From positions 372,001-436,000 of the forward strand of contig RHLJ01000001.1 of NCBI GenBank assembly GCA_003712055.1: a stretch of DNA of 64,000 nucleotides, in the 5' to 3' direction. Under the pieces are notes generated by a model, which ran no database searches, had not been told where the DNA came from, and was given only the letters and a program-made list of their open reading frames with translations. The stretch is from Balneola sp. (lineage in GTDB: Bacteria > Bacteroidota > Rhodothermia > Balneolales > Balneolaceae). Positions 24,231-41,805 of this stretch are shown one piece after another. Each line of letters opens with the position of its first letter. Position 1 is the stretch's first letter. The position numbers and the translations under genes are program-made.

Positions 24231-24863
24231 TCAGGGATCAATGAGCTTTCGAGCTATTCCTTTTGAGACGGCTTCTGCTTTGCTATGTACTTCCAGCTTT
24301 TGGTAAATGCTTCGGATATGGTGACGTACCCCGTCCACTGAAAGAAATATCGTTTTGCCAATAGCGGCATAGGATTTCCCTTTAGCCAGCTCTCTTAAGA
24401 TGGAAATCTCTCGTTCGTTTAACATTTCCTCTTTCTTGACTTCGGGAATATGAAGCGTTTTAATAATCTTCCTGGCAATATTTGGGGTTATTGGAGAGCC
24501 TCCCGAAAATGCGTCTTTTATGGCGGCTACCATTTCATCCGGACTCACCTTTTTCATCAGGTAGCCCACAGCTCCGGCCTTAATGGCGTTGAAAACATTT
24601 TCATCATCATCGAATACAGTAGCCATCACAATGATCATATTGGGGAATTTCGTTCGGAAAATACTTACTCCTTCAATCCCGCTCATTCCAGGTAAACCGA
24701 TGTCCAAAATGAGCACATCTACTTTGGCTAGCTCGGTGTCTTCGAGCGCCTCTTCACATGAACCATAGCTGGCAACCACACATAATTGCTTATCATAGTC
24801 TATAAATGTTTCCCAGCCCTCTCTTACATACTTATTGTCTTCAATGACTCCTACTTTAATCAA
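24231..24863 (-). CDS. NarL/FixJ-type response regulator
   Basis: A 210-residue DNA-binding response regulator. The receiver domain has acidic Glu8/Asp9, the phospho-acceptor Asp54 (VLILDIGLPG), Thr in MATVFDDD and Lys in GYLMKK. The C-terminal LuxR-type HTH covers LNEREISILRELAKGKSYAAIGKTIFLSVDGVRHHIRSIYQKL. It lies downstream of the propeller histidine kinase on the same strand and is its probable partner, though a 184-base gap with a possible terminator separates them. Confidence 0.94.
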   Translation of the reverse strand: MIKVGVIEDNKYVREGWETFIDYDKQLCVVASYGSCEEALEDTELAKVDVLILDIGLPGMSGIEGVSIFRTKFPNMIIVMATVFDDDENVFNAIKAGAVGYLMKKVSPDEMVAAIKDAFSGGSPITPNIARKIIKTLHIPEVKKEEMLNEREISILRELAKGKSYAAIGKTIFLSVDGVRHHIRSIYQKLEVHSKAEAVSKGIARKLIDP

Positions 24864-25047: not shown

Positions 25048-27954
25048 TTAGAGAAGAAGTTCTAGCCTCCAGCGGGTTCCGAATTCTTTATCTGTTTCTA
25101 ACTGCAACTTCCCTTTAATTTTCTCAGCCCTTTTCCTGATGTTCAGCAAACCATTCCCGGTTTTTCCTCCCTCTTCAAAGCCAGTTCCATTATCCTGGAC
25201 AATGAGCTTGAGTACTCCATTTTCTACATCTAAAATCACATCTACTCGTTCGGCCTTGGAATGTCGAACTACATTTGTAAGCATCTCCTTGAAGATCATC
25301 CACAAATGCTGACGTACATCCATTTTCAACTTACCTGGAATTTGGTCGGCTATATGTAAAGTGTACTCAATTCCCTTACTCTCCAGTAAATCGGAAGCAT
25401 AGCGCCGGCACTTAACCAGGAACTCTTTCCATCCATCATTCTCCGGGTTAATAGCCCATACAATGTCCGTTATATTTTCCTTGGCATCCCCTGCACTTTT
25501 GGTAATACGATTCATAAAATAAGATCTCTTCTTTGGATCCTTGTCTCGTTGTACTGCTTCAGCAAAGAGACTAATCCCCGTTAACGTAGCTGATACATCA
25601 TCATGCAAGTCATTGGCAATCCTGGTTCGCATCCGTTCTACTTTAAGAATTTGATTGACCCGTATTTTAAAAGCGGTATAGAGTATCCCTGAAATGAAGA
25701 TCGTATACATGAAATAAGCCCACCAGGTACGGTACCATGGTGGAAGAACTATAAAAGAAAAAGACTGAGCTTCACTAACCGCTCCAAAAACATTTCTTGC
25801 CTGAACTTGAAAGTTATACTCCCCTTCTGGAATGTTTGTATAATCTTTTTGAGTCTCACTTGTCCACTTATTCCAGTCTTTATCAAATCCAGCCAGTTTT
25901 GTTCTGAACTCAGTTTTTTCAGGTAAGCTATAACTTGAAGCCGAGTAACTGAATCTTAACTCATTATCCTCATACCTTAGTACATCTAAATCAGAATCAT
26001 CACCTCCATTGATTAATGAGTCATTTCTAACTAAAACTTCTTCAATTTGTGTATGATAAGAATATCCTAAATCTACTCTCCTTCCTGGGTAAAACCTCAC
26101 TAAAGATTCATTCATTGAAAACCAAATATCTCCATTACTATCTGAAAAAATACCATTGTTCTGCCCATCGGAAATTATGTTTAATGATTCTTTAAATAAT
26201 CTGAACTCATTTCGCTCTGTTTTTAAAGCCCCTTGAAAAGCAGAACCAGATCTAAACCATCCATTCCCAAATTTATCTTCAATAAACCTGAAATACTGCC
26301 TGGTAGTATCACTAAAAAAATCGCCAAACCTCCTAACTAGTCTTAGTTTGTTTTCTTCAAAATCAAACTCCTGTATTCCTGCACCCCAGGTTAAGAATAT
26401 TGGGGAGCCGCTATATTCACTTACCAAAACTCTTTTATTATCCTCGGGATTTGTAAATGAGGTGAGAAATTTTGAAGGTCTGCTTATTTTATAATCTTCT
26501 TCACTCGAAACTGTGTATCTATATAACCCACCAGTCTCACTACCTAACCAAATGTTATTTAAGCTGTCGACTTCAATAGAATTAAAATTATCGACTTCTT
26601 CATTCTCTATTTCTAGAAAAGTAAGTTTGTCTTCATTTAGCCTTCCAATAGACTGAAAAAGGTTATTCGCAGTAAAAACTAAATCAGGAGGTTCAATTAA
26701 TTCAATTACTGATAAGGTTAAATCTTCAGTATCAATAGCAAGAACTTCATGTCCTCTAATAAGATATAGCTTACCTCCGCAAACAGTATATAATAAACCT
26801 TGCACTTCTAAGAAGCCTCGGCAACTGGCACCTGAATTATCAATTTCTAATTCTAGGAACTCGTTTAACTCAACATCATATTTGTATAACCCTATAGTTG
26901 AAGAAGTAGCATATAAACTACCATTGTGTTCTTTAAGGTCATATATATATTGCGTAATCCCGTGTCTTTCATCAAAAACCTCAAATGGCAGGGAGAATTT
27001 TATCTGCGAAACCCCATTTCTCGTTGCAACCCAAACATCCCCAATTCTATCCTTAAATAACCCATATGCTGTATTATTAGATAACCCGTTCTCTTCGTCA
27101 ATAATGCGTATCAAACTTCCATCTTTAGCTATTTGAACTACTCCTCCCCTACGTGTTGCAAAAACTAGAGACTCATCTGATAATGAAATAGCTTCATCGA
27201 TATAATTTTCCGCAAGATACTTATCGGATTCTGTCACAAAGGCTACAAACTGATTGCCTTTTTTTTCATAACACTGATTAGGAGCACAAAAAATTGTCTT
27301 TTCCCCAATGCTAATAACTGACTTAATCGCTTTATCAATAAAGAAATTACCCCAATCAACAAGTTCAAGTTTATCCCCTCTTATCTTATATATTCCAATT
27401 GTAGAACTTCTAACAAAAACCTCACCATCCAACTCAAATAAAAAAGAAAACCGAACTTTGGGCTCCCAGTACTTTATCTCACTTGTTTCAGGATTATATT
27501 TAATAAGGAAGTTATTCGATCTAAAAAAAATGCTCTCTTTGTGAGAAATTACTTCCCATATATCCCCTATTATCAAGGAATCGGGTAGTAAATATCTAAT
27601 TGAATAATACTTTTCTTGTGCTGACTCTTCAGAATCAGATTTAGCTAAAAAACCTAGTTCATTACTTCCACCAATATATATCTCTCCTTTATGGTTCTCT
27701 AGACTGTATACTAAGTTGTTTTTAATAGAAATCTCATCCCATCTTGTACCTTTGTATTGAAATACACTCAGCCTATTTGCTACATAAATCACCCCATTTG
27801 AATCTTCTTGAAAAGCCCAGCTCTGAACAAATCCATTGTGTTCTTCTAGATTAAAATTTTGAATCAAAGGAAAACCACGACCCTCTTCGGGGAGCTGGGC
27901 TTTAACATGTATTGAGATAAATAAAACGAAAGAAAAAAATAGCTTTATTCTCAA
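25048..27954 (-). CDS. Two-component sensor histidine kinase with periplasmic beta-propeller
   Basis: A 968-residue sensor. A signal peptide (MRIKLFFSFVLFISIHVKAQ) is followed by about 620 residues of two-component-regulator propeller repeats (for example LFKDRIGDVWVATRNGVSQI and IFSDSNGDIWFSMNESLVRF), then a Y_Y_Y domain (LRFSYSASSY, KWTSETQKDYTNIPEGEYNFQVQARN), one membrane helix at about 740-765, and a HisKA_3 kinase core with phospho-acceptor His784 (NDLHDDVSATLTG). The HATPase follows, with N box KEMLTNVVRHSKA and G box DNGTGF and GNGLLNIRKRAEKI. The HisKA_3 class normally pairs with NarL-type regulators, as found next to it. The ligand is unknown; no polysaccharide-utilisation genes adjoin. 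Confidence 0.95.
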   Translation of the reverse strand: MRIKLFFSFVLFISIHVKAQLPEEGRGFPLIQNFNLEEHNGFVQSWAFQEDSNGVIYVANRLSVFQYKGTRWDEISIKNNLVYSLENHKGEIYIGGSNELGFLAKSDSEESAQEKYYSIRYLLPDSLIIGDIWEVISHKESIFFRSNNFLIKYNPETSEIKYWEPKVRFSFLFELDGEVFVRSSTIGIYKIRGDKLELVDWGNFFIDKAIKSVISIGEKTIFCAPNQCYEKKGNQFVAFVTESDKYLAENYIDEAISLSDESLVFATRRGGVVQIAKDGSLIRIIDEENGLSNNTAYGLFKDRIGDVWVATRNGVSQIKFSLPFEVFDERHGITQYIYDLKEHNGSLYATSSTIGLYKYDVELNEFLELEIDNSGASCRGFLEVQGLLYTVCGGKLYLIRGHEVLAIDTEDLTLSVIELIEPPDLVFTANNLFQSIGRLNEDKLTFLEIENEEVDNFNSIEVDSLNNIWLGSETGGLYRYTVSSEEDYKISRPSKFLTSFTNPEDNKRVLVSEYSGSPIFLTWGAGIQEFDFEENKLRLVRRFGDFFSDTTRQYFRFIEDKFGNGWFRSGSAFQGALKTERNEFRLFKESLNIISDGQNNGIFSDSNGDIWFSMNESLVRFYPGRRVDLGYSYHTQIEEVLVRNDSLINGGDDSDLDVLRYEDNELRFSYSASSYSLPEKTEFRTKLAGFDKDWNKWTSETQKDYTNIPEGEYNFQVQARNVFGAVSEAQSFSFIVLPPWYRTWWAYFMYTIFISGILYTAFKIRVNQILKVERMRTRIANDLHDDVSATLTGISLFAEAVQRDKDPKKRSYFMNRITKSAGDAKENITDIVWAINPENDGWKEFLVKCRRYASDLLESKGIEYTLHIADQIPGKLKMDVRQHLWMIFKEMLTNVVRHSKAERVDVILDVENGVLKLIVQDNGTGFEEGGKTGNGLLNIRKRAEKIKGKLQLETDKEFGTRWRLELLL

Positions 27955-29999: not shown

Positions 30000-32453
30000 A
30001 TGGGATTTAAAAACTCGGTAACCCTTCTTCTTTTAATTGGGTTAATCACTGGTTGTACAGGAGCTAAAGAATCAACCACAACTCCTAACCGACAAAGTAA
30101 TACCTCCAGATCGGCACCTAAAGATGGAATTAAAAAATTCAGCGATGTAATTAAAAAGACTGCTGATAAAGACGAAGGGCTTTTTACGATCTACCAGCAA
30201 GAAGATAAACTCTATTATGAAATCCCGGATTCGTTGCTTGGTCGCGATATGCTTCTTGTAAGCCGAGTTGCCGATGTCCCGGCTGGTTTCTTCGGCTTTT
30301 TCTCTTCAGGAGCTAAAACAGCCGAGCAGGTTATTCGCTTTGAAAGGCAAAAAGATCAAATCCTGATCCGAAAATACTCCTTCCAAAATATTGCCGACGA
30401 AGAACTCCCTGTTTACCGATCGGTTCAGGCCAATAACTTCGCCCCAATTTTAGCTGCTATGAATATAGAAGCACTTAATGAAGATTCTTCAGGGGTAGTT
30501 ATTGAAATGACCAAATTCTTTGATACTGACATTGAAGCGATAAGTGGTTTAATGACATTTCTACGTCGTCAATATCAGGTTCGTAGACTGGATGGAAATC
30601 GGAGTTATTTAGAATCGGCAAAAAGTTTTCCTCAAAATATAGAAGTACGCCATGTGATGACTTACCAGGCTGGCAACCCTCCTTCAGATGGAGGAGCTCA
30701 GACACTTTCACTAAGAATGAGTCAATCGATGGTTCTGTTACCAAAAGAACCCATGAGAAAAAGGCTTTATGATTACCGTGTTGGCTGGTTCACCATTAAC
30801 CAGATTGATTTCGGATTAGAGGAGCAAAAAGCTGCTTCCCGACAATATATTCGTCGTTGGAGATTAGAGCCTAAAGATCCTGAAGCTTATGCGCGTGGAG
30901 AATTAGTTGAGCCTGTAAAACCGATTGTTTACTACCTGGATCCTGCTACTCCCGAGAAATATCGTTCTTATATCATCCAGGGTATACTGGATTGGAATGT
31001 GGCTTTTGAGGAAGCCGGATTTAAGAATGCTGTTCAGGCAAAGCTCCCTCCTTCTCCAGAAGAAGATCCTGACTGGAGCCCAGAGGATATTCGATACTCT
31101 ACGGTTCGTTGGGTAGCCAATACCATTCGAAATGCCGTTGGCCCTAGTGTATCTGATCCACGATCTGGTGAGATTATCGAAAGTGATATCGTTTGGTACC
31201 ATAATCATATGCGTTCGTACCGAAATCGTCTGATGATTGAGACTGGTGCTGCAAATCCTGATGCGCGAAAACTAAAGTTAGATGACGATCTGATTGGTGA
31301 AACTATGCGCCGTGTTATTTCTCATGAAATTGGCCATGCCATTGGTCTTCCACATAATATGCAGTCAAGCTCGGCATACCCGGTTGATTCCCTCCGATCA
31401 GGCAAGTTTACCCAAGAATGGGGAATTGCAACCACAATTATGGAGTACGCCCGTCAGAATTATGTAGCTCAGCCTGGAGATGAAAATATCAGGTTTATCC
31501 GCCAAATCGGTCCTTATGACAAGTATTCTGTTAATTGGGGATATCGTCTGGTTCCCGGGGCTGATACTCCAGAAGAAGAAAAGCCTACCCTGGATTCATG
31601 GATTGAAGAAAAAGCCGGAGACCCTGTATATCGGTTCGCCTCTTCCACCGGATATGATCCTTCTTCTCAGACTGAAGATTTATCCAATGATCCGGTTAAA
31701 GCCAGTACATATGGCCTAATGAACCTCAAGCGAGTAGTTCCAAATCTTGTAGAATGGACATCTACTGATGGGCAGGATTATGATGATTTGGAAGAAATCT
31801 ATGGCGAACTGGTATTCCAATGGAACAGATACGCCCGTCACGTTTCAACCAACATTGGTGGGGTCTATCAAAACAGGCTTGCTTCTGACCAGGAGGGCTA
31901 TGTATACACACCAGTATCCAAAGAATACCAAAAGGAAGCAATGGAGTTTTTGATTGAACATGCTTTTTCGACTCCAACCTGGCTGCTTGATGAAGATATA
32001 CTTCGTCGAATTGAGCATAACGGAGCCATTAATCGGGTTAAGAACCTACAAGCTAGTATTCTAAATGCTACTATGAACCCTGGTGCAATGGCAAGGTTGA
32101 GTGAACAGAGTGCATTTGATAGTGATGCTTACTCGCTTTATGAAATGCTGAATGATATCAGAAAAGGAATCTGGAGTGAAGTGTATGAAAGTGAATCTAT
32201 TGATGCTTTCCGCCGGGCTCTTCAGCGAGAATACATAAGTTATCTACACAACATGTTTGAAACTGACCAATGGGGTTTTGGCTCAAACCAGGTAGATGTT
32301 AAAGATTCTGATATCCGGCCTGCACTTCGATATGAACTGGTCCAATTGCGAACAGATATCAGAAATGCTCGTCCTACAATCAGAGATCGAGCAAGCCGAT
32401 CTCATCTTGATGATATCACTGCGCGCATTAATGAGATTCTTGACGAAGATTAA
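30000..32453 (+). CDS. Zinc-dependent metalloprotease lipoprotein (DUF5117/DUF5118 type)
   Basis: An 817-residue secreted lipoprotein with lipobox LITGC (Cys at about residue 19). The N-terminal DUF5118/DUF5117-like regions (IKKTADKDEGLFTIYQQEDKLYYEIP, GRDMLLVSRV) precede a metzincin-type zinc site HEIGHAIGLPHNM starting at residue 442, with a Met-turn-like TTIMEYARQNY about 35 residues later. Bacteroidota carry many such proteases, thought to act in the periplasm or on the surface; the substrate is unknown. It is followed by a strong bidirectional terminator. Confidence 0.93.
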   Translation: MGFKNSVTLLLLIGLITGCTGAKESTTTPNRQSNTSRSAPKDGIKKFSDVIKKTADKDEGLFTIYQQEDKLYYEIPDSLLGRDMLLVSRVADVPAGFFGFFSSGAKTAEQVIRFERQKDQILIRKYSFQNIADEELPVYRSVQANNFAPILAAMNIEALNEDSSGVVIEMTKFFDTDIEAISGLMTFLRRQYQVRRLDGNRSYLESAKSFPQNIEVRHVMTYQAGNPPSDGGAQTLSLRMSQSMVLLPKEPMRKRLYDYRVGWFTINQIDFGLEEQKAASRQYIRRWRLEPKDPEAYARGELVEPVKPIVYYLDPATPEKYRSYIIQGILDWNVAFEEAGFKNAVQAKLPPSPEEDPDWSPEDIRYSTVRWVANTIRNAVGPSVSDPRSGEIIESDIVWYHNHMRSYRNRLMIETGAANPDARKLKLDDDLIGETMRRVISHEIGHAIGLPHNMQSSSAYPVDSLRSGKFTQEWGIATTIMEYARQNYVAQPGDENIRFIRQIGPYDKYSVNWGYRLVPGADTPEEEKPTLDSWIEEKAGDPVYRFASSTGYDPSSQTEDLSNDPVKASTYGLMNLKRVVPNLVEWTSTDGQDYDDLEEIYGELVFQWNRYARHVSTNIGGVYQNRLASDQEGYVYTPVSKEYQKEAMEFLIEHAFSTPTWLLDEDILRRIEHNGAINRVKNLQASILNATMNPGAMARLSEQSAFDSDAYSLYEMLNDIRKGIWSEVYESESIDAFRRALQREYISYLHNMFETDQWGFGSNQVDVKDSDIRPALRYELVQLRTDIRNARPTIRDRASRSHLDDITARINEILDED

Positions 32454-32460
32454 AAACATA

Positions 32461-32486
32461 AAAAAGGCTCCTTTTGGAGCCTTTTT
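32461..32486. terminator. Bidirectional Rho-independent terminator
   Basis: GGCTCC-TTTT-GGAGCC (32466-32481) flanked by five A on the left and five T on the right, so it can stop both the metalloprotease transcript (plus) and the small winged-helix gene (minus), whose stop codon overlaps it. Confidence 0.92.
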
Positions 32487-32909: not shown

Positions 32910-35045
32910 ATGTACAGAAAGCTAACCCTACGATATCGAATTTTCCTCATCACCTCGTGCCTGATACTTGTCGCGTATGCACTGGTGTTGATATTCGTAC
33001 GCCCTAAATATCGGGAAGCTATTATAAATGAACGTACAACGATTGTATCACAGCTTCAGGAATACTCACTAAGAAGGACAGATGAGACTATTCGTAATTG
33101 GTTGAATGCGACTACTATTCTTGCAGAAGATATTCGTAGTGCTCCGGGCCAAACCGAAGAAATTGTTCGAAGAGCAATTAATTATACTCCCGGATTGGTG
33201 AGGATTACTTTGTCAGAATCAGGTTCTACTGATATGCTTGATTTCACAAGAACTATCTATCAAAACATCGACTTTCCAACCGCAGTGGATGAATGGTATC
33301 CATCTCGTCTTGATCAGCGGTTGAATATGGCCTGGTTACCCGATACTCTTGAAGCTGTCGACATCTTTATCGCACAACGCACTATCCAAATTGACTCTTT
33401 TGATGGTTCCGGCTCTCCTATTGAGTTGATATTTACCCTGGATATGTTCTTTGATGCTAAACGGCTGACCTTTGAACTGACCGACATTCCTCTTGGAACC
33501 GGTAATTACGAAGCAAATATAGTGAGCGATTTAGGTGACCATATAGCGAACTCAGAGTTTATTTTCCCAAGTGAATTAATTGGTGATGCAAGTTTTTCAG
33601 AAGAAAAAGAAGTTTCTATAGACGGAGAAAACTGGTTTTTAATGTCCTCCCGGTTCGAGACTATTCCGTTTTGGCACCTTATTGCAGTAGAGGATGATTT
33701 TATTTTAAAACCGGTAAGAGACTTACTACTCTTTTCCTTGTTTACAGGACTTGGAATCCTGGGCATCATGGTATTTTTTAGCTGGTACATCAGTAACCGG
33801 ATGAATAAACCCATCAACCAAATCTTGTTGGATGTTGAGCACATAAGTAATCTCGAGTTTGATAAATCCATTCGCGAAGTAGATCTGCCGGAGTTTGGAA
33901 TTATGAGAGAAACGCTCGAGAATATTAGGATTACCCTCCTCCGCTATCAAAAGATTAATGTTGAGAAGATTATTTTAGAAGAATGGAAGAACCGATATAT
34001 GATGACGTATTCAGAAGATTTAATTGGGATTCTGGATAACGATGGTGGCTTCAGATTCGCGAATAATCACTTTGTTCAATTTATAGAGTCATTTGGATAC
34101 AACCCTAAAGAAGTAAAATTTGATCAGCTACTTGATACCCAAAAACTTGAGCTCAGTAAGAATAGTCAAACTGTACATTATCCGAATCCTTATACAATTA
34201 AGATCAATCAGGCTGAACTGGCACATTTTAAAGATGAAAATCTCACCTACTTTTATGACTACCAGTACGTAGCCTTTATTGATGAGCAAGGCAATTCGCA
34301 AGGAGCTCTTATAGTTCTTCACGACAAAACCAATGACAGGCTTATAGATCTCAAGCGTACTGATATGATCAATATCATTGTTCACGAGCTTAAAAATCCA
34401 ATAAGTGGCGTAGTTGGCCTTTCAAAGCTTATGCTCGATAACCCCTCAATGGATGAGGAAGAGTACAAAGAATTAGTCAAGGAAATCTATTTGTCAGGAG
34501 AACGGATGAATGATCTGGTAAACAGGTTCCTGGATGTACAAAGACTGGAACATGGCCGTATACCTGTAGAATTCAACCAGGTGGATTTATTCCAATTAGT
34601 GAATGATGTGAAAACGATTACTAACCCTCTGTTGTCACAGAAAAATCTGAAAATGAATATTTCCGCAAAAGGAACGAGTTTCATAGTTTCAGGTAGTAAA
34701 GACCTTTTGTTTGATGCGGTTCAAAATCTGGTAAGTAATGCCATTAAATATGGTGATCCAGATAGGGTTATTGAAGTTGAACTGATGGACAAAGACGGTC
34801 AAACTGAGCTTAGTGTAATTGATTATGGTTTTGGTATTAGTATCGAAGATCAGCAGAAAGTATTTGAGAAATTCTTCCGCGTCCGGTCGAATCTCAAATC
34901 TGCAAAAGAAAAAGGTACTGGTCTTGGCCTGGCTTATGTGAAAGAGATCATGCACAAGCACAATGGAGATATACAATTAGAATCGAACGAAGAAATTGGC
35001 AGTAAATTCACCCTCATTTTCCCTCCTTATGAGAAAAAGGACTAA
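32910..35045 (+). CDS. Membrane sensor histidine kinase (extracytoplasmic domain, HAMP, PAS, HisKA)
   Basis: A 711-residue kinase. Membrane helix 1 lies at 11-30 and helix 2 at about 272-292, bracketing a roughly 240-residue periplasmic sensor of dCache-like size. HAMP follows (RMNKPINQILLDVEHISNLEF), then a PAS-like domain (about 355-480, DLIGILDNDGGFRFANNHF) and HisKA with His492 (IIVHELKNPISG). HATPase_c has the N box NLVSNAIKYG, G1 DYGFGIS, F box FEKFFRV and G2 KGTGLGLAYVKEIM. No response regulator is adjacent. Its 3' end overlaps the next gene by 17 bases, so it is coupled to two secreted-protein genes. Confidence 0.94.
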   Translation: MYRKLTLRYRIFLITSCLILVAYALVLIFVRPKYREAIINERTTIVSQLQEYSLRRTDETIRNWLNATTILAEDIRSAPGQTEEIVRRAINYTPGLVRITLSESGSTDMLDFTRTIYQNIDFPTAVDEWYPSRLDQRLNMAWLPDTLEAVDIFIAQRTIQIDSFDGSGSPIELIFTLDMFFDAKRLTFELTDIPLGTGNYEANIVSDLGDHIANSEFIFPSELIGDASFSEEKEVSIDGENWFLMSSRFETIPFWHLIAVEDDFILKPVRDLLLFSLFTGLGILGIMVFFSWYISNRMNKPINQILLDVEHISNLEFDKSIREVDLPEFGIMRETLENIRITLLRYQKINVEKIILEEWKNRYMMTYSEDLIGILDNDGGFRFANNHFVQFIESFGYNPKEVKFDQLLDTQKLELSKNSQTVHYPNPYTIKINQAELAHFKDENLTYFYDYQYVAFIDEQGNSQGALIVLHDKTNDRLIDLKRTDMINIIVHELKNPISGVVGLSKLMLDNPSMDEEEYKELVKEIYLSGERMNDLVNRFLDVQRLEHGRIPVEFNQVDLFQLVNDVKTITNPLLSQKNLKMNISAKGTSFIVSGSKDLLFDAVQNLVSNAIKYGDPDRVIEVELMDKDGQTELSVIDYGFGISIEDQQKVFEKFFRVRSNLKSAKEKGTGLGLAYVKEIMHKHNGDIQLESNEEIGSKFTLIFPPYEKKD

Positions 35046-36813
35046 TTCTATTGTTCTTTCTTTGGTTTTTGTGAGTCTATTTTTTGTCGAAGCTTCTTTC
35101 GCACAAAACGGATCTGTAACCTTCCCTTCTTCCGAGTTACAACAAATGGCATTGCGCTACTCCGGAAATAGCCTGAATTGGCCGGTTTTAGTGAACCTTG
35201 CCGACCATGATATCTCTTCTAATAGTTTTACTCTTACACGATCCGATCTATTGCAGCTTGAGTCTTTTTCCAGAACTTCTTCATCAGTAACAGAAAGCCA
35301 GGAAAAAATTAAGTCACTGATATCTTCAGGAGCTACCATTTTTGCTAAAGAAGAATTGAATCAAACCAATACTCTTATCAAAGAGTATATCGATGCGGTA
35401 CAAACTGGTGAAATAGAAACCGCAATTGAAGTTGGAAATGCAATTCCGGAAGCAATTGTAGAATTGGAATCCACTTTGAATGCCAATCGGCTTGTTCAAA
35501 TACAAGCACAGCTTGCAGAAAAAACAGGTAATGTTGATAAGAGGCTTGGTCTCTTGGGCGGCTGGGAAGACGCATTTGAAGGTGACCTTTTTAAAGAGTC
35601 TGATGGCTTACGGACATTTATTGAAAGTTATGCTAGCCTTGAGTTTACAGATGGAAGCTCAATTACTGTTGAACCAAGTACGGTGGCTGTAATAAGGAAA
35701 TCACGAATTGATAAATTGGACGAAAGTGCTGATACGGAAATAAGCCTCGTTCAGGGCGGCTTGCTTGCAAAATTATCTGCTGCCGGTAAGGAACGGAGTA
35801 AATACATCCTTAATGCGGGTGCTTCTACTTCGGAACTTAAGACTCAAAATTTTTATGCTGAATCCGATGGTCAGGAGACCGTAAAACTCACGAATTACGA
35901 TGGAACAGCAAATGTGAGTGCCAATGATGTGACTATTACCATCCGTAAAAATGAAGGTACTATTGTACGTGAAGGAGAACCCCCTGCTCCTCCTATTGAG
36001 TTATTACCTTCTCCTGAACTAGCATGGGCTTCCAGCGATACAGTTATTTATAATGAGAGTATCATTTTCCCATTTAGACAGGTTGAAGATGCTGTGTCCT
36101 ATCGCATCGAATACAGTACCTCTTCTTCATTTAGTGCCGAAATAAAAGAAATCACGCTCACATCCAATTCCGCCCGGATAGGAGATTTACCACTTGGAAC
36201 AACCTTTATTCGTGTACAGGCAATCGACAACCTTGGTCTCAGGGGCCCGTTTTCAGAAGTTACTCGTGTAATTAGAAATGTAGATAATCAACCCCCTGCT
36301 ATCTTCCTTGAGGAAGTGGCTGGCAATATTGTCTTTACTCTTGAAAATTCCTTCTTAGTACAAGGTGTTACTGAACCTGATGCTAGAGTAGAGATTAATA
36401 ATGTTCGGGTACCAGTTCAGGCTTCCGGTCGTTTTATCTACCAGGTTCAAAATCTTGGAGTAGATCAAACTGCATCAATAAAATCTATTGATGGATCAGG
36501 AAACGTTAATGAATCGAAACTTAGAATTGTTCGCTTAACAGAGGATGTTCTCTTTAACCTCTCGCTTACGGGTTCAATATCCGGTAATAGCATTCGAGTA
36601 AATCAGCCTACGGTGACTATGTCTTCAAAGGCATATCCTGAATTGGAAGTCATTATTATTAATGAAGGTACCACCCGTACAGTACAAACAGATTCGCAGG
36701 GAAGGTGGGGTATCACAATGAATATGCAAGAAGGCGAACTTTCTATTACATTTAAGGGTATTCGCTCTGGGGTGAACTCCTTAACAAAATCATTTACAGT
36801 AGAAGCTAATTAA
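35029..36813 (+). CDS. Secreted FecR-domain and Ig/FN3-like repeat protein
   Basis: About 594 residues from ATG 35029; an upstream ATG at 34996 would disrupt the signal peptide. Signal peptide RKRTNSIVLSLVFVSLFFVEASFAQ. A helical N-terminal region (to about 180) is followed by a FecR-like beta domain (SYASLEFTDGSSITVEPSTVAVIRK, LVQGGLLAKLSA), a proline-rich hinge (EGEPPAPPIELLPSPELAW), an FN3-like module (AVSYRIEYSTSSSFSAEI), and two bacterial Ig-like modules (VQGVTEPDARVEINNVRVP; ELEVIIINEGTTRTVQTDSQG). It lies between the kinase and the PKD protein, so it is probably an envelope or surface partner of both. Confidence 0.82.
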   Translation: MRKRTNSIVLSLVFVSLFFVEASFAQNGSVTFPSSELQQMALRYSGNSLNWPVLVNLADHDISSNSFTLTRSDLLQLESFSRTSSSVTESQEKIKSLISSGATIFAKEELNQTNTLIKEYIDAVQTGEIETAIEVGNAIPEAIVELESTLNANRLVQIQAQLAEKTGNVDKRLGLLGGWEDAFEGDLFKESDGLRTFIESYASLEFTDGSSITVEPSTVAVIRKSRIDKLDESADTEISLVQGGLLAKLSAAGKERSKYILNAGASTSELKTQNFYAESDGQETVKLTNYDGTANVSANDVTITIRKNEGTIVREGEPPAPPIELLPSPELAWASSDTVIYNESIIFPFRQVEDAVSYRIEYSTSSSFSAEIKEITLTSNSARIGDLPLGTTFIRVQAIDNLGLRGPFSEVTRVIRNVDNQPPAIFLEEVAGNIVFTLENSFLVQGVTEPDARVEINNVRVPVQASGRFIYQVQNLGVDQTASIKSIDGSGNVNESKLRIVRLTEDVLFNLSLTGSISGNSIRVNQPTVTMSSKAYPELEVIIINEGTTRTVQTDSQGRWGITMNMQEGELSITFKGIRSGVNSLTKSFTVEAN

Positions 36814-36819
36814 CGGAAC

Positions 36820-39800
36820 ATGTTTAAACGAATAACACTTGTTATCGCTTTTTTTGTTTCTGGGTTTTCTGGGTATAGCCAGGAGATGTACCTCTCTATC
36901 TCCGGACAAAATGTAGATATTCAAAGTGGCGATAATCGCCACTTATATGATATATGGATTAAACCCGGAGCTAATGCTCAGAATGGAAGCCTTCAGATTT
37001 TTGATGCTGGTTTGGGAGGCGCCGTTGATTTAATAACTCAAGAAGATGCGAATACGGTTACTACGTTCGAATTATTCCGATTTGATGAATTATATCGAAC
37101 CACAGGTAATTCAGTAGCAACGCTTTCAGGTTCACCAACCGCACAAAATAGTCTTGTTACCAAAAGCGAAGAACGTTTTAAAAATAGATGGGTTCCCTTA
37201 GCCGATATTTCACCTGGCCCAAATGGGTATATAGTTCGAGTTACTACAGATGAGGGAGATGATGTAAATAGTTTTAATTTCCGGGTTGTATCACCAACAG
37301 GACAAGTATTAAGTGGCAGCGCCTGGAAAGTGGTGGCTATCGACCTTTCAGTAGGTGTTTATCGCTCCAGTGCTAATACACTGTTTCAGTTAAAACCTCA
37401 CATTCTTGATCCTGGAGCTGATGCCCCAAACCTCTCAATAAATGGTCAGGAAGACTCTCGCATAACTATTATCGATGCTTTTGGAGAAACCTACCCAGTA
37501 GCAGATTCTGATATGCCTTCTCAACGATTTGGTATTGATAATAACTGGGGACTTCAAATTGGAGGCTCTCAAAGCTGGCTAAATACCCTCACTGTATTTG
37601 GGCAACAAGAACCTGTACTCTGGGAATTCGAGCCCATTGCACTCAATGAATTAGAGAAACCTTCTCTAAGCATTAATGAAATTGAAGCCACTCGCTGTAC
37701 CAATAAAAGGTTTGAGCTTTCTGGTAACGTTTTTACTCAACGTGATCTTGGAAGTGCTCAATGGATATTAAACAGTGAGGTAATAAGTACAGGTAGTGGC
37801 CCTACCATCGCATTTGAAGATCGAGGGCAAATCCCGGTTGATGTTCTTATCCCTAATGAGCGTTCTTATTTCCCGGAATATTGGGCGTATACAAAAATCG
37901 TTTTTGTTAACACCCCTCCTATTGCCCGCTTAGAATCCCCAAAAGAAATTATATCTCCTTCAGAAGTTCTCACATTATCCGCTGCTGAATCTTATGATCT
38001 TGAAGGACAAGAAGTTGATATAACATGGTTCGTAAATGGAACTCGCCGTAATACTGGTCCAAGTTTTGATTTCTCAAACACTGTCTCAGGACTTTACACT
38101 ATTTCTATACAAGTAGCTGATGGAGGCACCTCATTAAATTGTAGTATTTCTGAACAAGAAGTTCAGGTACGTGTAAATACTCAGCCCTATGCCGAGATAG
38201 ATGTGGCACCCGTTTCTGGTACTGACGATGAGATCGTATTGAAAGTATCAAATCAAACCGACTCGGATAATGATCAGCTGACATACCTTTGGGCTGGAAT
38301 TGGAATTCCTCAAAATTCAACTGCTGAGAGCATCGTAGTTCAGCACCAACAGCCTGGTGTTTACCCAGTGCGATTGACAGTAAATGATGGTTCAGGAGCT
38401 CAAAATGCAGCCTACTCTGTCAATCAGGTGTATGAAGTTAATGCAGCACCTGTTCCTGAGTTTTCAGTACCTGGTTATGTAGCACCGGGTGATATTTTCG
38501 CTTTAAACGGCGTTGAATCAGAAGATCCTAATCAGGATCCATTAATATATATATGGACTGTAAACGATGAAGAAGTAGCTCGAGGTGATGTTTCCACTCT
38601 ATCACTAAGTAATCCAGGCGATTATGAAATCAAACTTACTGTTGATGATCAGCGAGGAGTAAGCAACTCTGTTCAAAGTCTTACCCAAGTTGTTCATGTA
38701 AATGCCCCCCCAAGCCCAATTATTACAGCAGTACCAATTACTTCTACTGCAAAAGTTACTTTTGCTGCCACTCAAAGTTCTGACGCTGAATCAGAATTAG
38801 CCTCTTATGACTGGGATTTTGGTGATGGAAACAGAGCATCAGGTCCTCAGGTTGATCATACCTACCAAAGAACGGGAAGCTATACCGTAAGACTGACCGT
38901 CGATGATGGCTCAAATCTTAGAAACAGTGTTCAAACTTCAGAACACGTAATTGTTGTTAACAGCTACCCTGTCGCTTCTTTTGAAATACCTGAAGTAGTT
39001 GCACCTGGAATAGCATTTACAGCTGATGCAAGCACCAGTACCGACGCTGATGGAGCCATTAGCAAATATGAATGGGAAGCCAATGGATCGGCTGCGGGTA
39101 TAGGAAGAACGAATACTATTACATTAACTGAATCTGGTTTGCATACCATTTCATTATATGTAACTGATGACTCCGGATTTGATCAGGCAAAAGGCTTTAG
39201 CTCAAAACAAGTACGAGTGAACCAGCCCCCTATTCCGGGTTGGAGAACTGAGCCTACTGAAATCGTACCTAATACCGAAATCAAATTCTTTGCTGATCAA
39301 TCAGTTGATCCTGACGGTAATATAGACAGTTACTTATGGCGTTTTGAGGACGGTACAGAGCTCAAAGGAATGCAAATTCAGCGAATATTTTCGGAAGGCG
39401 GGATAAAGAGATTTACTATTACTGTTACCGATAATGACGGACTGGAAAATTCTACTTCTACAGTTGAAGGATTCGTTAACGTAAATCATCAACCTTATAT
39501 CGTTACCGAAACCGTGGTACGGTCAAATTCGACAACTGTGCGGTTGGATGCTTCTGAAAGCTACGATCTGGACAATGATGCCATTACTTATGAATGGACG
39601 TTACCTGATGGCACAAAACGAAAGGAATCATCTTTTAGTTGGACTGCTCCATCTCCAGGGATTCATTTCATTGGCCTTACTTTAGACGATGGACTAGGAC
39701 TTTCTAATAGTGTCAACAGTGAATCTATCAGGGTAATGGTTAACCGACCTGTTCAGGCGGTTGTTGATTCGGTTATAACTTCATGTAGTGGCCAGACGGT

Positions 39801-41535
39801 TTTGTTTAATAGTTCAAGGAGTTTCGATCCTGATGGTGATGCATTTAGAGCACAATGGGATTTTGGAAATGGAGTTACCTCCGACGAAGCTAATCCTTCC
39901 TATGTTTATGAAACTCCGGGCGTTTATGAAGCAAAACTTACTTTATCCGATGGATTTTCGGGTCAAAGTTCAGTAGCTAAGATTCCCGTCATTATTGAGG
40001 GCTCGCCAGTAGCAAAATTGAATTTAGCAGAAGCCACCATCTGTGTGAATACCGCGCTCATGTTCGATGGATCTGAAAGTACTGATCCATCAGGGTCCCT
40101 GCCTGCCATGAGTTGGGATATGGGTGATGGAAATTCAGCTACAGGTGCACGATTTGAGCATATCTTCACTGAGCCAGGTGAATACACGGTTACTCTTACC
40201 GTTGTAGGTTCAGGATCAGGACAGTGTAGTAATATCAGCCAGGCTACTGCAAAGGTTACTGTTGTAGAAGGCCCGGTTGCCTCCTTCGACTTACCAGAAT
40301 GGATAGCACCTGGTGAACCGATCATCCTTGATGGATCTGCCTCGTCAGCAGATGGAGGATTTAGAACAGCTAAGTGGATGATTGATACTGAATCGGGAAG
40401 CCAGGAGCTGGATGGCCTCACTACTACACATACCTTTAATGAGCCCGGGGAATACTTCGTTACCCTTTACCTGGAAACAAATACAGATACTGATTGCAAT
40501 ACGGTTAGTCTCACAAAATCCATAAAAGTGAATGCTCCTCCCACAATTGTATGGGAACTACCAGACAATATTGTAGCAGGTGAAGATTTAGAACTTAATG
40601 CTTTTGCAAGTAGTGACCCTGATGGATTCATCAAGCAGTTCAAGTGGTATATTGATGATGGTTTTGTGAGCTATAATGCAAGCGAACTGGTAAAAGCTAT
40701 TACTCCAGGACGTCATAAAGTGAATTTAGAAATCCGCGATAATTCTGCTGCATCAAATAACGTGGTTACTATGGAGAAGTATTTCTTCGCTAATAGCAGT
40801 CCTCTACCTACCATAGAAGGACCAGCTATTATTTATCAAAACCAGCAGGTAAATCTACGATCCGGACTTGGACAAGACAGGGATGGAGATTTATTAACCA
40901 CCACTTGGAAATTGGATGGACAAGCCCTTCCATTCCCTCAGTTTACTGTTGATGAGCCGAGAACCTATAGAGTAACTCTGATACAGAATGATGGACGCGG
41001 ACTACCAAACTCAGCTGACTCAACCATCCTAGAAATAAATCCGGTAAGAGTACCCGATGTCTCCCCTTCCTATCCTGAAAAAATTGTTGTGGGTGGAGTC
41101 TTATCTATTCCAACTATGGGTGTATCTGATTCATGGACATTCGCGAACCAGAATTTTTATGAGACTTCCTGGAGAGCAAGTGCTGCTGGAGAACAAACCT
41201 TCCATTTAGCCTGGACTCCTTTGGGAATGGAATTAAGTAGGCGTCCTTTCACGATTAATGTAGTTGAGCCTTTGAAATTCACAGAACCTGCTACTCCGTT
41301 GATTGTAGACTGGAACCCGGTGAATCCAACTACAGTAGTCAAAATCCCTGCTTTAAATCGTCCGTTATCGGAAGTTCAAATAATCTGGAAACAAGCTGGT
41401 GAAGAGATCGGAAGAGGTTCTCAATTGAGCCCTAGATTAATCCGAGGACAAAATAGATTTACTGTTGAGGTTTCTGATTTAAAGGTAAGTCAATCCAGAC
41501 CGATCAGTGTTGATGTAATTGTTACTACTCAATAA
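36820..41535 (+). CDS. Giant secreted PKD/Ig-repeat protein, about 12 repeats
   Basis: A 1571-residue protein with signal peptide (MFKRITLVIAFFVSGFSGYSQ). Residues about 25-290 are a unique domain. Counting the DxxSxDxDGD-like strand followed by a W-containing strand gives about 12 PKD-type modules between residues 388 and 1430, for example TQSSDAESELASYDWDFGDG and SRSFDPDGDAFRAQWDFGNG, each ending in a (V)TLTVxD(D/N)G-like strand. The tail of about 140 residues has no repeat and no recognisable type IX secretion C-terminal domain. Such proteins serve in adhesion or as surface scaffolds. It starts six bases after the FecR-like gene and is the last gene of the unit. Confidence 0.9.
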   Translation: MFKRITLVIAFFVSGFSGYSQEMYLSISGQNVDIQSGDNRHLYDIWIKPGANAQNGSLQIFDAGLGGAVDLITQEDANTVTTFELFRFDELYRTTGNSVATLSGSPTAQNSLVTKSEERFKNRWVPLADISPGPNGYIVRVTTDEGDDVNSFNFRVVSPTGQVLSGSAWKVVAIDLSVGVYRSSANTLFQLKPHILDPGADAPNLSINGQEDSRITIIDAFGETYPVADSDMPSQRFGIDNNWGLQIGGSQSWLNTLTVFGQQEPVLWEFEPIALNELEKPSLSINEIEATRCTNKRFELSGNVFTQRDLGSAQWILNSEVISTGSGPTIAFEDRGQIPVDVLIPNERSYFPEYWAYTKIVFVNTPPIARLESPKEIISPSEVLTLSAAESYDLEGQEVDITWFVNGTRRNTGPSFDFSNTVSGLYTISIQVADGGTSLNCSISEQEVQVRVNTQPYAEIDVAPVSGTDDEIVLKVSNQTDSDNDQLTYLWAGIGIPQNSTAESIVVQHQQPGVYPVRLTVNDGSGAQNAAYSVNQVYEVNAAPVPEFSVPGYVAPGDIFALNGVESEDPNQDPLIYIWTVNDEEVARGDVSTLSLSNPGDYEIKLTVDDQRGVSNSVQSLTQVVHVNAPPSPIITAVPITSTAKVTFAATQSSDAESELASYDWDFGDGNRASGPQVDHTYQRTGSYTVRLTVDDGSNLRNSVQTSEHVIVVNSYPVASFEIPEVVAPGIAFTADASTSTDADGAISKYEWEANGSAAGIGRTNTITLTESGLHTISLYVTDDSGFDQAKGFSSKQVRVNQPPIPGWRTEPTEIVPNTEIKFFADQSVDPDGNIDSYLWRFEDGTELKGMQIQRIFSEGGIKRFTITVTDNDGLENSTSTVEGFVNVNHQPYIVTETVVRSNSTTVRLDASESYDLDNDAITYEWTLPDGTKRKESSFSWTAPSPGIHFIGLTLDDGLGLSNSVNSESIRVMVNRPVQAVVDSVITSCSGQTVLFNSSRSFDPDGDAFRAQWDFGNGVTSDEANPSYVYETPGVYEAKLTLSDGFSGQSSVAKIPVIIEGSPVAKLNLAEATICVNTALMFDGSESTDPSGSLPAMSWDMGDGNSATGARFEHIFTEPGEYTVTLTVVGSGSGQCSNISQATAKVTVVEGPVASFDLPEWIAPGEPIILDGSASSADGGFRTAKWMIDTESGSQELDGLTTTHTFNEPGEYFVTLYLETNTDTDCNTVSLTKSIKVNAPPTIVWELPDNIVAGEDLELNAFASSDPDGFIKQFKWYIDDGFVSYNASELVKAITPGRHKVNLEIRDNSAASNNVVTMEKYFFANSSPLPTIEGPAIIYQNQQVNLRSGLGQDRDGDLLTTTWKLDGQALPFPQFTVDEPRTYRVTLIQNDGRGLPNSADSTILEINPVRVPDVSPSYPEKIVVGGVLSIPTMGVSDSWTFANQNFYETSWRASAAGEQTFHLAWTPLGMELSRRPFTINVVEPLKFTEPATPLIVDWNPVNPTTVVKIPALNRPLSEVQIIWKQAGEEIGRGSQLSPRLIRGQNRFTVEVSDLKVSQSRPISVDVIVTTQ

Positions 41536-41639: not shown

Positions 41640-41735
41640 GTCATTCCTGCGAAGGCAGGAATCTAAATTTGGATGAAGAGAAAGATTTGAGTCTTCAAAA
41701 CCAATCTAGATTCCTGACATACGTCGCGGAATGAC
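41640..41735. repeat. MITE-like palindromic repeat with GTCATTCC/GGAATGAC ends
   Basis: A 96-base noncoding element with perfect 8-base inverted termini (41640-41647 and 41728-41735). The left hairpin ATTCCTGC-GAAG-GCAGGAAT spans 41643-41662, and AATCTAGATTCC lies in the right part (41703-41714). It shares termini and the AATCTAGAT core with the element at 23809. It sits between the PKD gene and trkA; the rest of that 270-base gap holds no gene. Confidence 0.8.
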
Positions 41736-41805
41736 CCCTTTAGTATTTATGGGTTGTTTCTTAGTTTGAATTCACCTTTTATCAACTCACTCAACTCGAT
41801 TTCAT

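Follow-up and report, generated by a model that had tools for sequence, protein, structure and literature searches.

A conserved gene trio for a histidine kinase, a FecR-like protein and a PKD-repeat protein in Balneola sp.: a candidate FecR-assisted envelope- or surface-sensing system

The BiofilmReg operon of the Burkholderiales encodes a response regulator, a LysM/FecR protein, a CHASE2-PAS kinase and a DUF4136 lipoprotein, and an insertion in the regulator results in the loss of biofilm; its LysM/FecR-kinase pair has been proposed to function in periplasmic sensing (PMC5192318). A cluster described in the Campylobacterota comprises a CHASE2 adenylate cyclase, a FecR protein, a TPR protein and a phosphodiesterase (PMC9239204).

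In the present analysis, a stretch of 64,000 nucleotides (hereafter the window) from the 3.63-Mb genome of a Balneola sp. was examined, in which three adjacent genes encode a sensor histidine kinase with a predicted dCache input domain, a secreted FecR-like protein and a giant PKD-repeat protein. A sequence-only reading of the window had proposed this trio as a candidate undescribed surface-sensing system. No paper describing a dCache-FecR-PKD module was found when full texts, covering a part of the literature, were searched for dCache together with FecR, and to that extent the word undescribed holds; it does not extend to LysM/FecR proteins encoded beside CHASE2 sensors, which had been described already (PMC5192318, PMC9239204).

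The three genes and their products

The trio and a nearby element are located as follows.

32910..35045, + strand: sensor histidine kinase gene, 711 aa (ORF; Pfam HisKA 1.5e-14, HATPase_c 2.8e-24)
35029..36813, + strand: secreted FecR/Ig protein gene, 594 aa (ORF, Pfam; signal peptide)
36820..41535, + strand: giant PKD-repeat protein gene, 1571 aa (ORF, Pfam)
32461..32486, + strand: terminator-like hairpin between the upstream met-zincin gene and the trio (consensus scan)

The ORF coordinates confirm the close packing noticed in the sequence-only reading: read from ATG 35029, the FecR ORF encodes 594 aa and overlaps the kinase gene by 17 bases (TTG 34996 is an alternative start), and the ORF of the 1571-residue PKD protein begins six bases past the FecR stop. 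Judged from this spacing, the three genes are probably co-transcribed. A scan for E. coli-type promoters gave no excess (16 found vs 25 expected), sites of the TAnnTTTG type were absent upstream of all three genes, and the hairpin is a scan match that by itself is no evidence of function. The immediate neighbours of the trio are a DUF4953/DUF5117/DUF5118 met-zincin gene upstream (30000-32453) and TrkA downstream. The gap between the PKD and TrkA genes, 270 bases in the window as against about 60-115 in most relatives, carries an imperfect, REP-like inverted repeat at 41640-41740 (TCATTCCTGCGAAGGCAGGAAT ... ATTCCTGACATACGTCGCGGAATGACC).

The ORF list and the Pfam matches bear out the earlier observation that a response regulator, a TonB receptor and a sigma factor are all missing from the trio, and they place no ECF sigma factor FecI in the trio or the immediately adjacent genes of the window. 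A SusC/SusD pair is likewise absent from the trio and the adjacent genes, in keeping with the view that the locus is not a PUL. Within the window, a receiver domain occurs in a single ORF (minus strand, 24231-24863), which lies beside its own kinase, a minus-strand Reg_prop/Y_Y_Y/HisKA_3 protein (25048-27954) unrelated to the trio.

The kinase gene was divided as follows.

32928..33011, + strand: first transmembrane helix, residues 7-34 (hydropathy)
33009..33713, + strand: predicted extracytoplasmic dCache sensor domain, residues 34-268 (AlphaFold model, fold matches)
33714..33794, + strand: second transmembrane helix, residues 269-295 (hydropathy)
34002..34334, + strand: putative cytoplasmic PAS-like domain, about residues 365-475 (model secondary structure)
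34356..35027, + strand: HisKA and HATPase_c catalytic core, residues 483-706, phosphoacceptor H492 (Pfam, alignment)

The product is, as had been suggested, a membrane kinase with a large periplasmic sensor, its two hydrophobic helices bracketing the predicted dCache domain. In the AlphaFold model, the block of residues 34-268 has pLDDT values mostly of 70-93, and the cytoplasmic half is modelled poorly. Fold searches (Foldseek, VIA-align) returned dCache ligand-binding domains as the best matches (6ios, Z 16.1 over 205 residues, 3.6 A); the crystal structures among the matches are dCache sensors, and the model is closest to amino-acid and amine chemoreceptors. The hallmarks of the fold, namely two PAS-like units, a long N-terminal helix and two flanking transmembrane helices, are present in the model, and the prediction for the sensor is a double-Cache domain. 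In sequence it resembles distant dCache sensors weakly (36%, E 3.7e-4), and the kinase has no Pfam match to CHASE2.

Across 33 kinase homologues, H492, N606, N610, G640, G642, G669 and G671-L674, which represent the phosphoacceptor His and the N and G boxes, are invariant. The invariant residues cluster at the membrane-near N-terminal helix (P32, Y34, E41, R42, W64) and in the cytoplasmic core, and the putative pocket region of the sensor is variable. The amino-acid motif of dCache_1AA domains includes the carboxylate-binding arginine R126 of PctA (PMC10104139); inspection of the sequence alignment showed that arginine is not conserved at the position two residues ahead of the aligned W129. 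The variable pocket and the lack, by alignment, of a conserved motif arginine are compatible with a protein or polymer as the input. One kinase homologue (L051, G054:C11) is represented by two ORFs, one of 270 aa and one of 432 aa, and one in-frame stop is reported for it; the assembly may be in error here, or the gene may have decayed.

The FecR/Ig protein has the following parts.

35116..35262, + strand: N-terminal LysM-derived segment, about residues 30-78 (profile match to distant homologues)
35608..35880, + strand: FecR domain, residues 194-284 (Pfam PF04773)
36568..36798, + strand: C-terminal Ig-like domain, residues 514-590 (sub-threshold Big_13 match)

The FecR domain is degenerate, its E-value of 2.6e-4 in the protein search falling slightly below the Pfam cut-off and its score of 26.7 bits in the genome scan lying over it. 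By inspection, the protein carries a Sec-type signal sequence (residues 5-26), which is its lone hydrophobic segment; hydropathy predicts no internal transmembrane segment, and the mature protein is devoid of cysteine and hence of a lipobox. Residues 27-180 align with the N-termini of distant FecR homologues that match Pfam LysM (hhalign 97.4%, E 1e-11); the LysM segment on its own is degenerate in the same profile comparison (30%, E 5.5e-4). In the combined alignment W51 does not vary. A wall-binding (LysM) ancestry of the N-terminus is well supported by these profile comparisons, and peptidoglycan binding by the segment in the window may have been lost.

The PKD-repeat protein was resolved into two regions.

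36883..37689, + strand: N-terminal all-beta domain of unknown family, residues 22-290 (model pTM 0.67, mean pLDDT 66)
37696..41013, + strand: 13 PKD repeats, residues 293-1398 (Pfam, iterated profile)

A fold search with the N-terminal domain gave no significant match, the best (Z 5.1) being unrelated beta-sandwiches. The 12 repeats of the sequence-only reading agree with the 12 stretches matched by Pfam PKD_4; an iterated profile gives 13 clear repeats and one weak C-terminal repeat, and homologues carry 12-14. The repeats are orthologous by position to those of distant homologues: central repeats pair best with their positional counterparts even at about 38% identity. An array fixed in this way, with each repeat conserved individually, is unlike a recombining, fast-evolving adhesin. 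An Ig-like domain is about 4 nm long, and 13 of them fully extended would span tens of nanometres. The protein has, by inspection, a Sec-type signal peptide with no cysteine near the N-terminus and hence no lipobox, and hydropathy predicts no internal transmembrane segment. Since no T9SS sorting domain (PF18962 or TIGR04183) was detected at its C-terminus, a location in the periplasm is no less likely than one on the surface; both the FecR and PKD proteins may reside in the periplasm, and surface exposure of the secreted proteins is likewise conceivable.

Distribution, gene order and exchanged outputs

A contig scan by peptide patterns found only seven close relatives, and the family counts were obtained with whole-genome searches. 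Among 97 relatives, the kinase was identified in 37 genomes, the FecR protein in 39 (full-length or contig-cut homologues) and the PKD protein in 40, with the kinase and PKD counts resting on profile searches. The three sets of genomes are nested, and all three genes are missing from 57 genomes. The trio is thus inherited in an all-or-none manner, barring contig ends and one genome with the PKD gene alone. In the two genomes with FecR and no kinase (G035, G086) the FecR gene lies at a contig end, and the one true exception is G083, in which the PKD gene stands beside an unrelated ORF and no FecR or kinase gene was found. The FecR matches in G062, G074 and G076 are weak and local and were not accepted as family members.

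For the phylum survey, 394 genomes were searched with a FecR profile, which recovered the trio from additional families, and a second search extended the list; with the loci of the relatives included, there are 62 rows that correspond to 61 distinct loci. The order transducer-FecR-PKD occurs in 58 of the 61 (51 with a histidine kinase and seven with a dCache-type transducer); one of the remaining three has no PKD gene (L106) and two lie at contig ends. Conservation of order to this extent is far beyond chance. L110 and L111, with an OmpA N-terminus on FecR or without a transducer, were treated as outside the family, the L110 protein carrying the OmpA domain in place of LysM. The search for the same gene order that the sequence-only reading had recommended therefore recovered it from many Bacteroidota, and this broad synteny rules out the restriction to one strain that the reading had named as telling against its proposal.

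In the family of the window (f1), the trio lies between ald/met-zincin and, at nearly all loci, TrkA/TrkH, and the order ald, met-zincin, trio, TrkA, TrkH is kept within this family only. The flanks are unrelated and the trio is intact in families f2 to f5, for which identities are 26-30% (kinase), about 30-34% (FecR) and 36-39% (PKD), and altogether it is intact across about ten families with differing flanks. The coupling of the three genes is real, ancient and transferable among unrelated neighbourhoods, and our confidence in the existence and coupling of the module is very high. A receiver scan of the loci found linked response regulators sporadically and none conserved. A gene for a receiver with a SpoIIE/PP2C phosphatase (RsbU-type) directly precedes transducer-FecR-PKD at two loci (L109, 3646-4812; L108, 8506-9669) and is possibly a partner-switching output.

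In distant relatives, the output of the transducer varies. A dCache-HAMP transducer ending in HisKA/HATPase_c precedes FecR at six loci (L106, L107, L108, L116-L118) and one ending in a class III nucleotide cyclase at L109 and L112, and in G355 a cyclase-FecR-PKD module stands in tandem with a kinase-FecR-PKD module. Because only the first ~385 residues align between the cyclase and kinase forms and the output parts do not, it is the extracytoplasmic input, and not the output, that is co-inherited with FecR-PKD.

The three genes also evolve in correlation. Over 17 f1 loci, the distances of sensor, FecR and PKD correlate after removal of four flanking genes (partial r 0.64-0.76; Mantel p 0.0005), and the catalytic domain gives partial r of 0.67 with FecR and 0.57 with PKD; the correlation of the sensor slightly exceeds that of the catalytic part. 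Under a uniform control, module pairs range over 0.64-0.79, module-flank pairs over -0.12 to 0.60 and flank-flank pairs over 0.00-0.60; caution is required since one flanking gene also tracks PKD (PKD-TrkH, 0.60).

The role of the secreted proteins

We regard it as somewhat probable that the kinase, FecR and PKD proteins constitute one signalling cassette, in which the two secreted proteins act as the input arm. The strongest argument is the exchange of outputs under a constant dCache-FecR-PKD, from which we infer that the secreted proteins take part in signal input; with the correlated evolution of the three genes, it lends weight to the suggestion of the sequence-only reading that they form the sensing arm of the kinase, and the mechanosensing or ruler function is speculative. 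The kinase would work through its periplasmic dCache input with the two secreted partners of its own operon, the FecR protein most likely being at or near the cell wall and linked to the PKD protein, a putative long rod of fixed length. The dCache domain would read the state of FecR/PKD, be it their occupancy, where they lie or how they are tensioned in the envelope, or whether they touch surface polymers; that state would set autophosphorylation at H492, and the phosphate would presumably pass to a response regulator encoded elsewhere. The physical contact of FecR/PKD with dCache, the signal and the partner regulator are thus put forward as plausible elements of the scheme. The joint inheritance and gene order, the predicted dCache fold, the LysM ancestry, the positional orthology of the PKD repeats and the precedent of BiofilmReg also speak for the cassette; against it stand the degenerate LysM segment, the PKD gene of G083 without FecR or kinase, the FecR locus L106 without PKD, the weak similarity of the sensor to distant dCache sensors and the correlation of TrkH with PKD.

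A more specific form, in which FecR-PKD is a portable extracytoplasmic receptor, a wall-anchored Ig rod of fixed length that serves as a ruler or force sensor, clamps dCache and is plugged into different outputs (histidine kinase cores of several types or a nucleotide cyclase), is offered as tentative.

Rather unlikely, in our estimation, is the explanation that the kinase is an ordinary small-molecule sensor autoregulating its operon and that FecR/PKD are secreted cargo, whether matrix, adhesin or envelope scaffold. Autoregulated kinase operons with cargo are common, extracellular proteins typically carry PKD repeats, the ligands of dCache domains are usually small, and the sensor model best matches amino-acid/amine chemoreceptors; however, cargo does not readily account for the retention of the dCache-HAMP half while the output shifts from a kinase core to a nucleotide cyclase, and the arginine equivalent to R126 of PctA is not conserved by alignment (PMC10104139), repeat number and identity are fixed rather than variable, and the operon has no consistently linked regulator.

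FecR/PKD might instead build or anchor an envelope structure, such as a tether from the wall to the outer membrane, with the kinase monitoring its assembly in the manner of envelope-stress systems. The LysM and OmpA peptidoglycan-binding N-termini of FecR homologues and the long rod of fixed length would suit such a role, and accessory proteins that act on envelope kinases are known (e.g. QseG-QseE, YycHI-WalK). Nevertheless, outside family f1 the trio has neither assembly machinery nor an outer-membrane protein as a conserved neighbour, and a module absent as a block from many relatives is not a core part of the envelope, which renders this explanation improbable. The last alternative, that unrelated genes came to form an operon by chance and were then frozen in a single lineage, accords with the conservation of flanking genes within Balneolaceae and is refuted by the joint occurrence of the trio in about ten families with different flanks and its absence as a block elsewhere.

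The cassette with a FecR-PKD input arm, if correct, would widen the role of the FecR domain from sigma-factor control to that of a periplasmic partner of membrane sensors, and would provide a testable function for large conserved PKD proteins, whose annotation usually goes no further than surface or adhesin-like. To our knowledge, most dCache receptors have no known ligand, small-molecule binding being assumed. The trio offers a tractable example of how dCache domains might receive their input through a protein or the envelope, because the sensor is inherited with two dedicated secreted proteins that are kept when the output is replaced.

Comparison with known systems

The trio and FecIRA have the FecR domain in common. 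FecR of FecIRA is an inner-membrane anti-sigma factor with a cytoplasmic N-terminus, whereas the FecR protein of the trio is secreted and follows a histidine kinase, and the trio has neither sigma factor nor TonB receptor; the earlier statement that it is not a FecIR system therefore stands. The predicted sensor fold is common to dCache_1 chemoreceptors and kinases (Mlp24, PctA, mmHK1), from which the trio differs in the pocket arginine, not conserved by alignment, and in the two secreted partner genes tied to the sensor.

With the Campylobacterota cluster, the trio shares the clustering of a FecR-domain protein with a membrane sensor, which in that cluster makes cAMP, and the distant cyclase form of the module is similar in logic; the differences are the CHASE2 sensor, a TPR protein where the trio has PKD, and an outer-membrane FecR protein. 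The genome of the window carries a second FecR-plus-sensor operon (L113, 5699-12635; G000:C4, about 461.7-468.6 kb) encoding a 407-aa protein, a 249-aa FecR protein, a 906-aa protein without a Pfam match and a CHASE2-nucleotide cyclase (721 aa), which is similar in kind to the Campylobacterota cluster and separate from the trio.

BiofilmReg is the closest described system, both having the gene of a secreted LysM/FecR protein beside that of a membrane sensor kinase in one operon, although the LysM of the trio is recognised by homology to LysM-bearing N-termini and is degenerate in the window. BiofilmReg has a CHASE2 input, a response regulator in the operon and the order regulator-FecR-kinase, whereas the trio has a predicted dCache input, no regulator and an additional PKD protein. 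Thus, the trio resembles the FecR-assisted sensors without being a member of them, because it lacks CHASE2 and the regulator and has PKD in addition. Its joint inheritance across many Bacteroidota, upheld where the output of the sensor is exchanged, points to an undescribed kind of FecR-assisted envelope- or surface-sensing complex.
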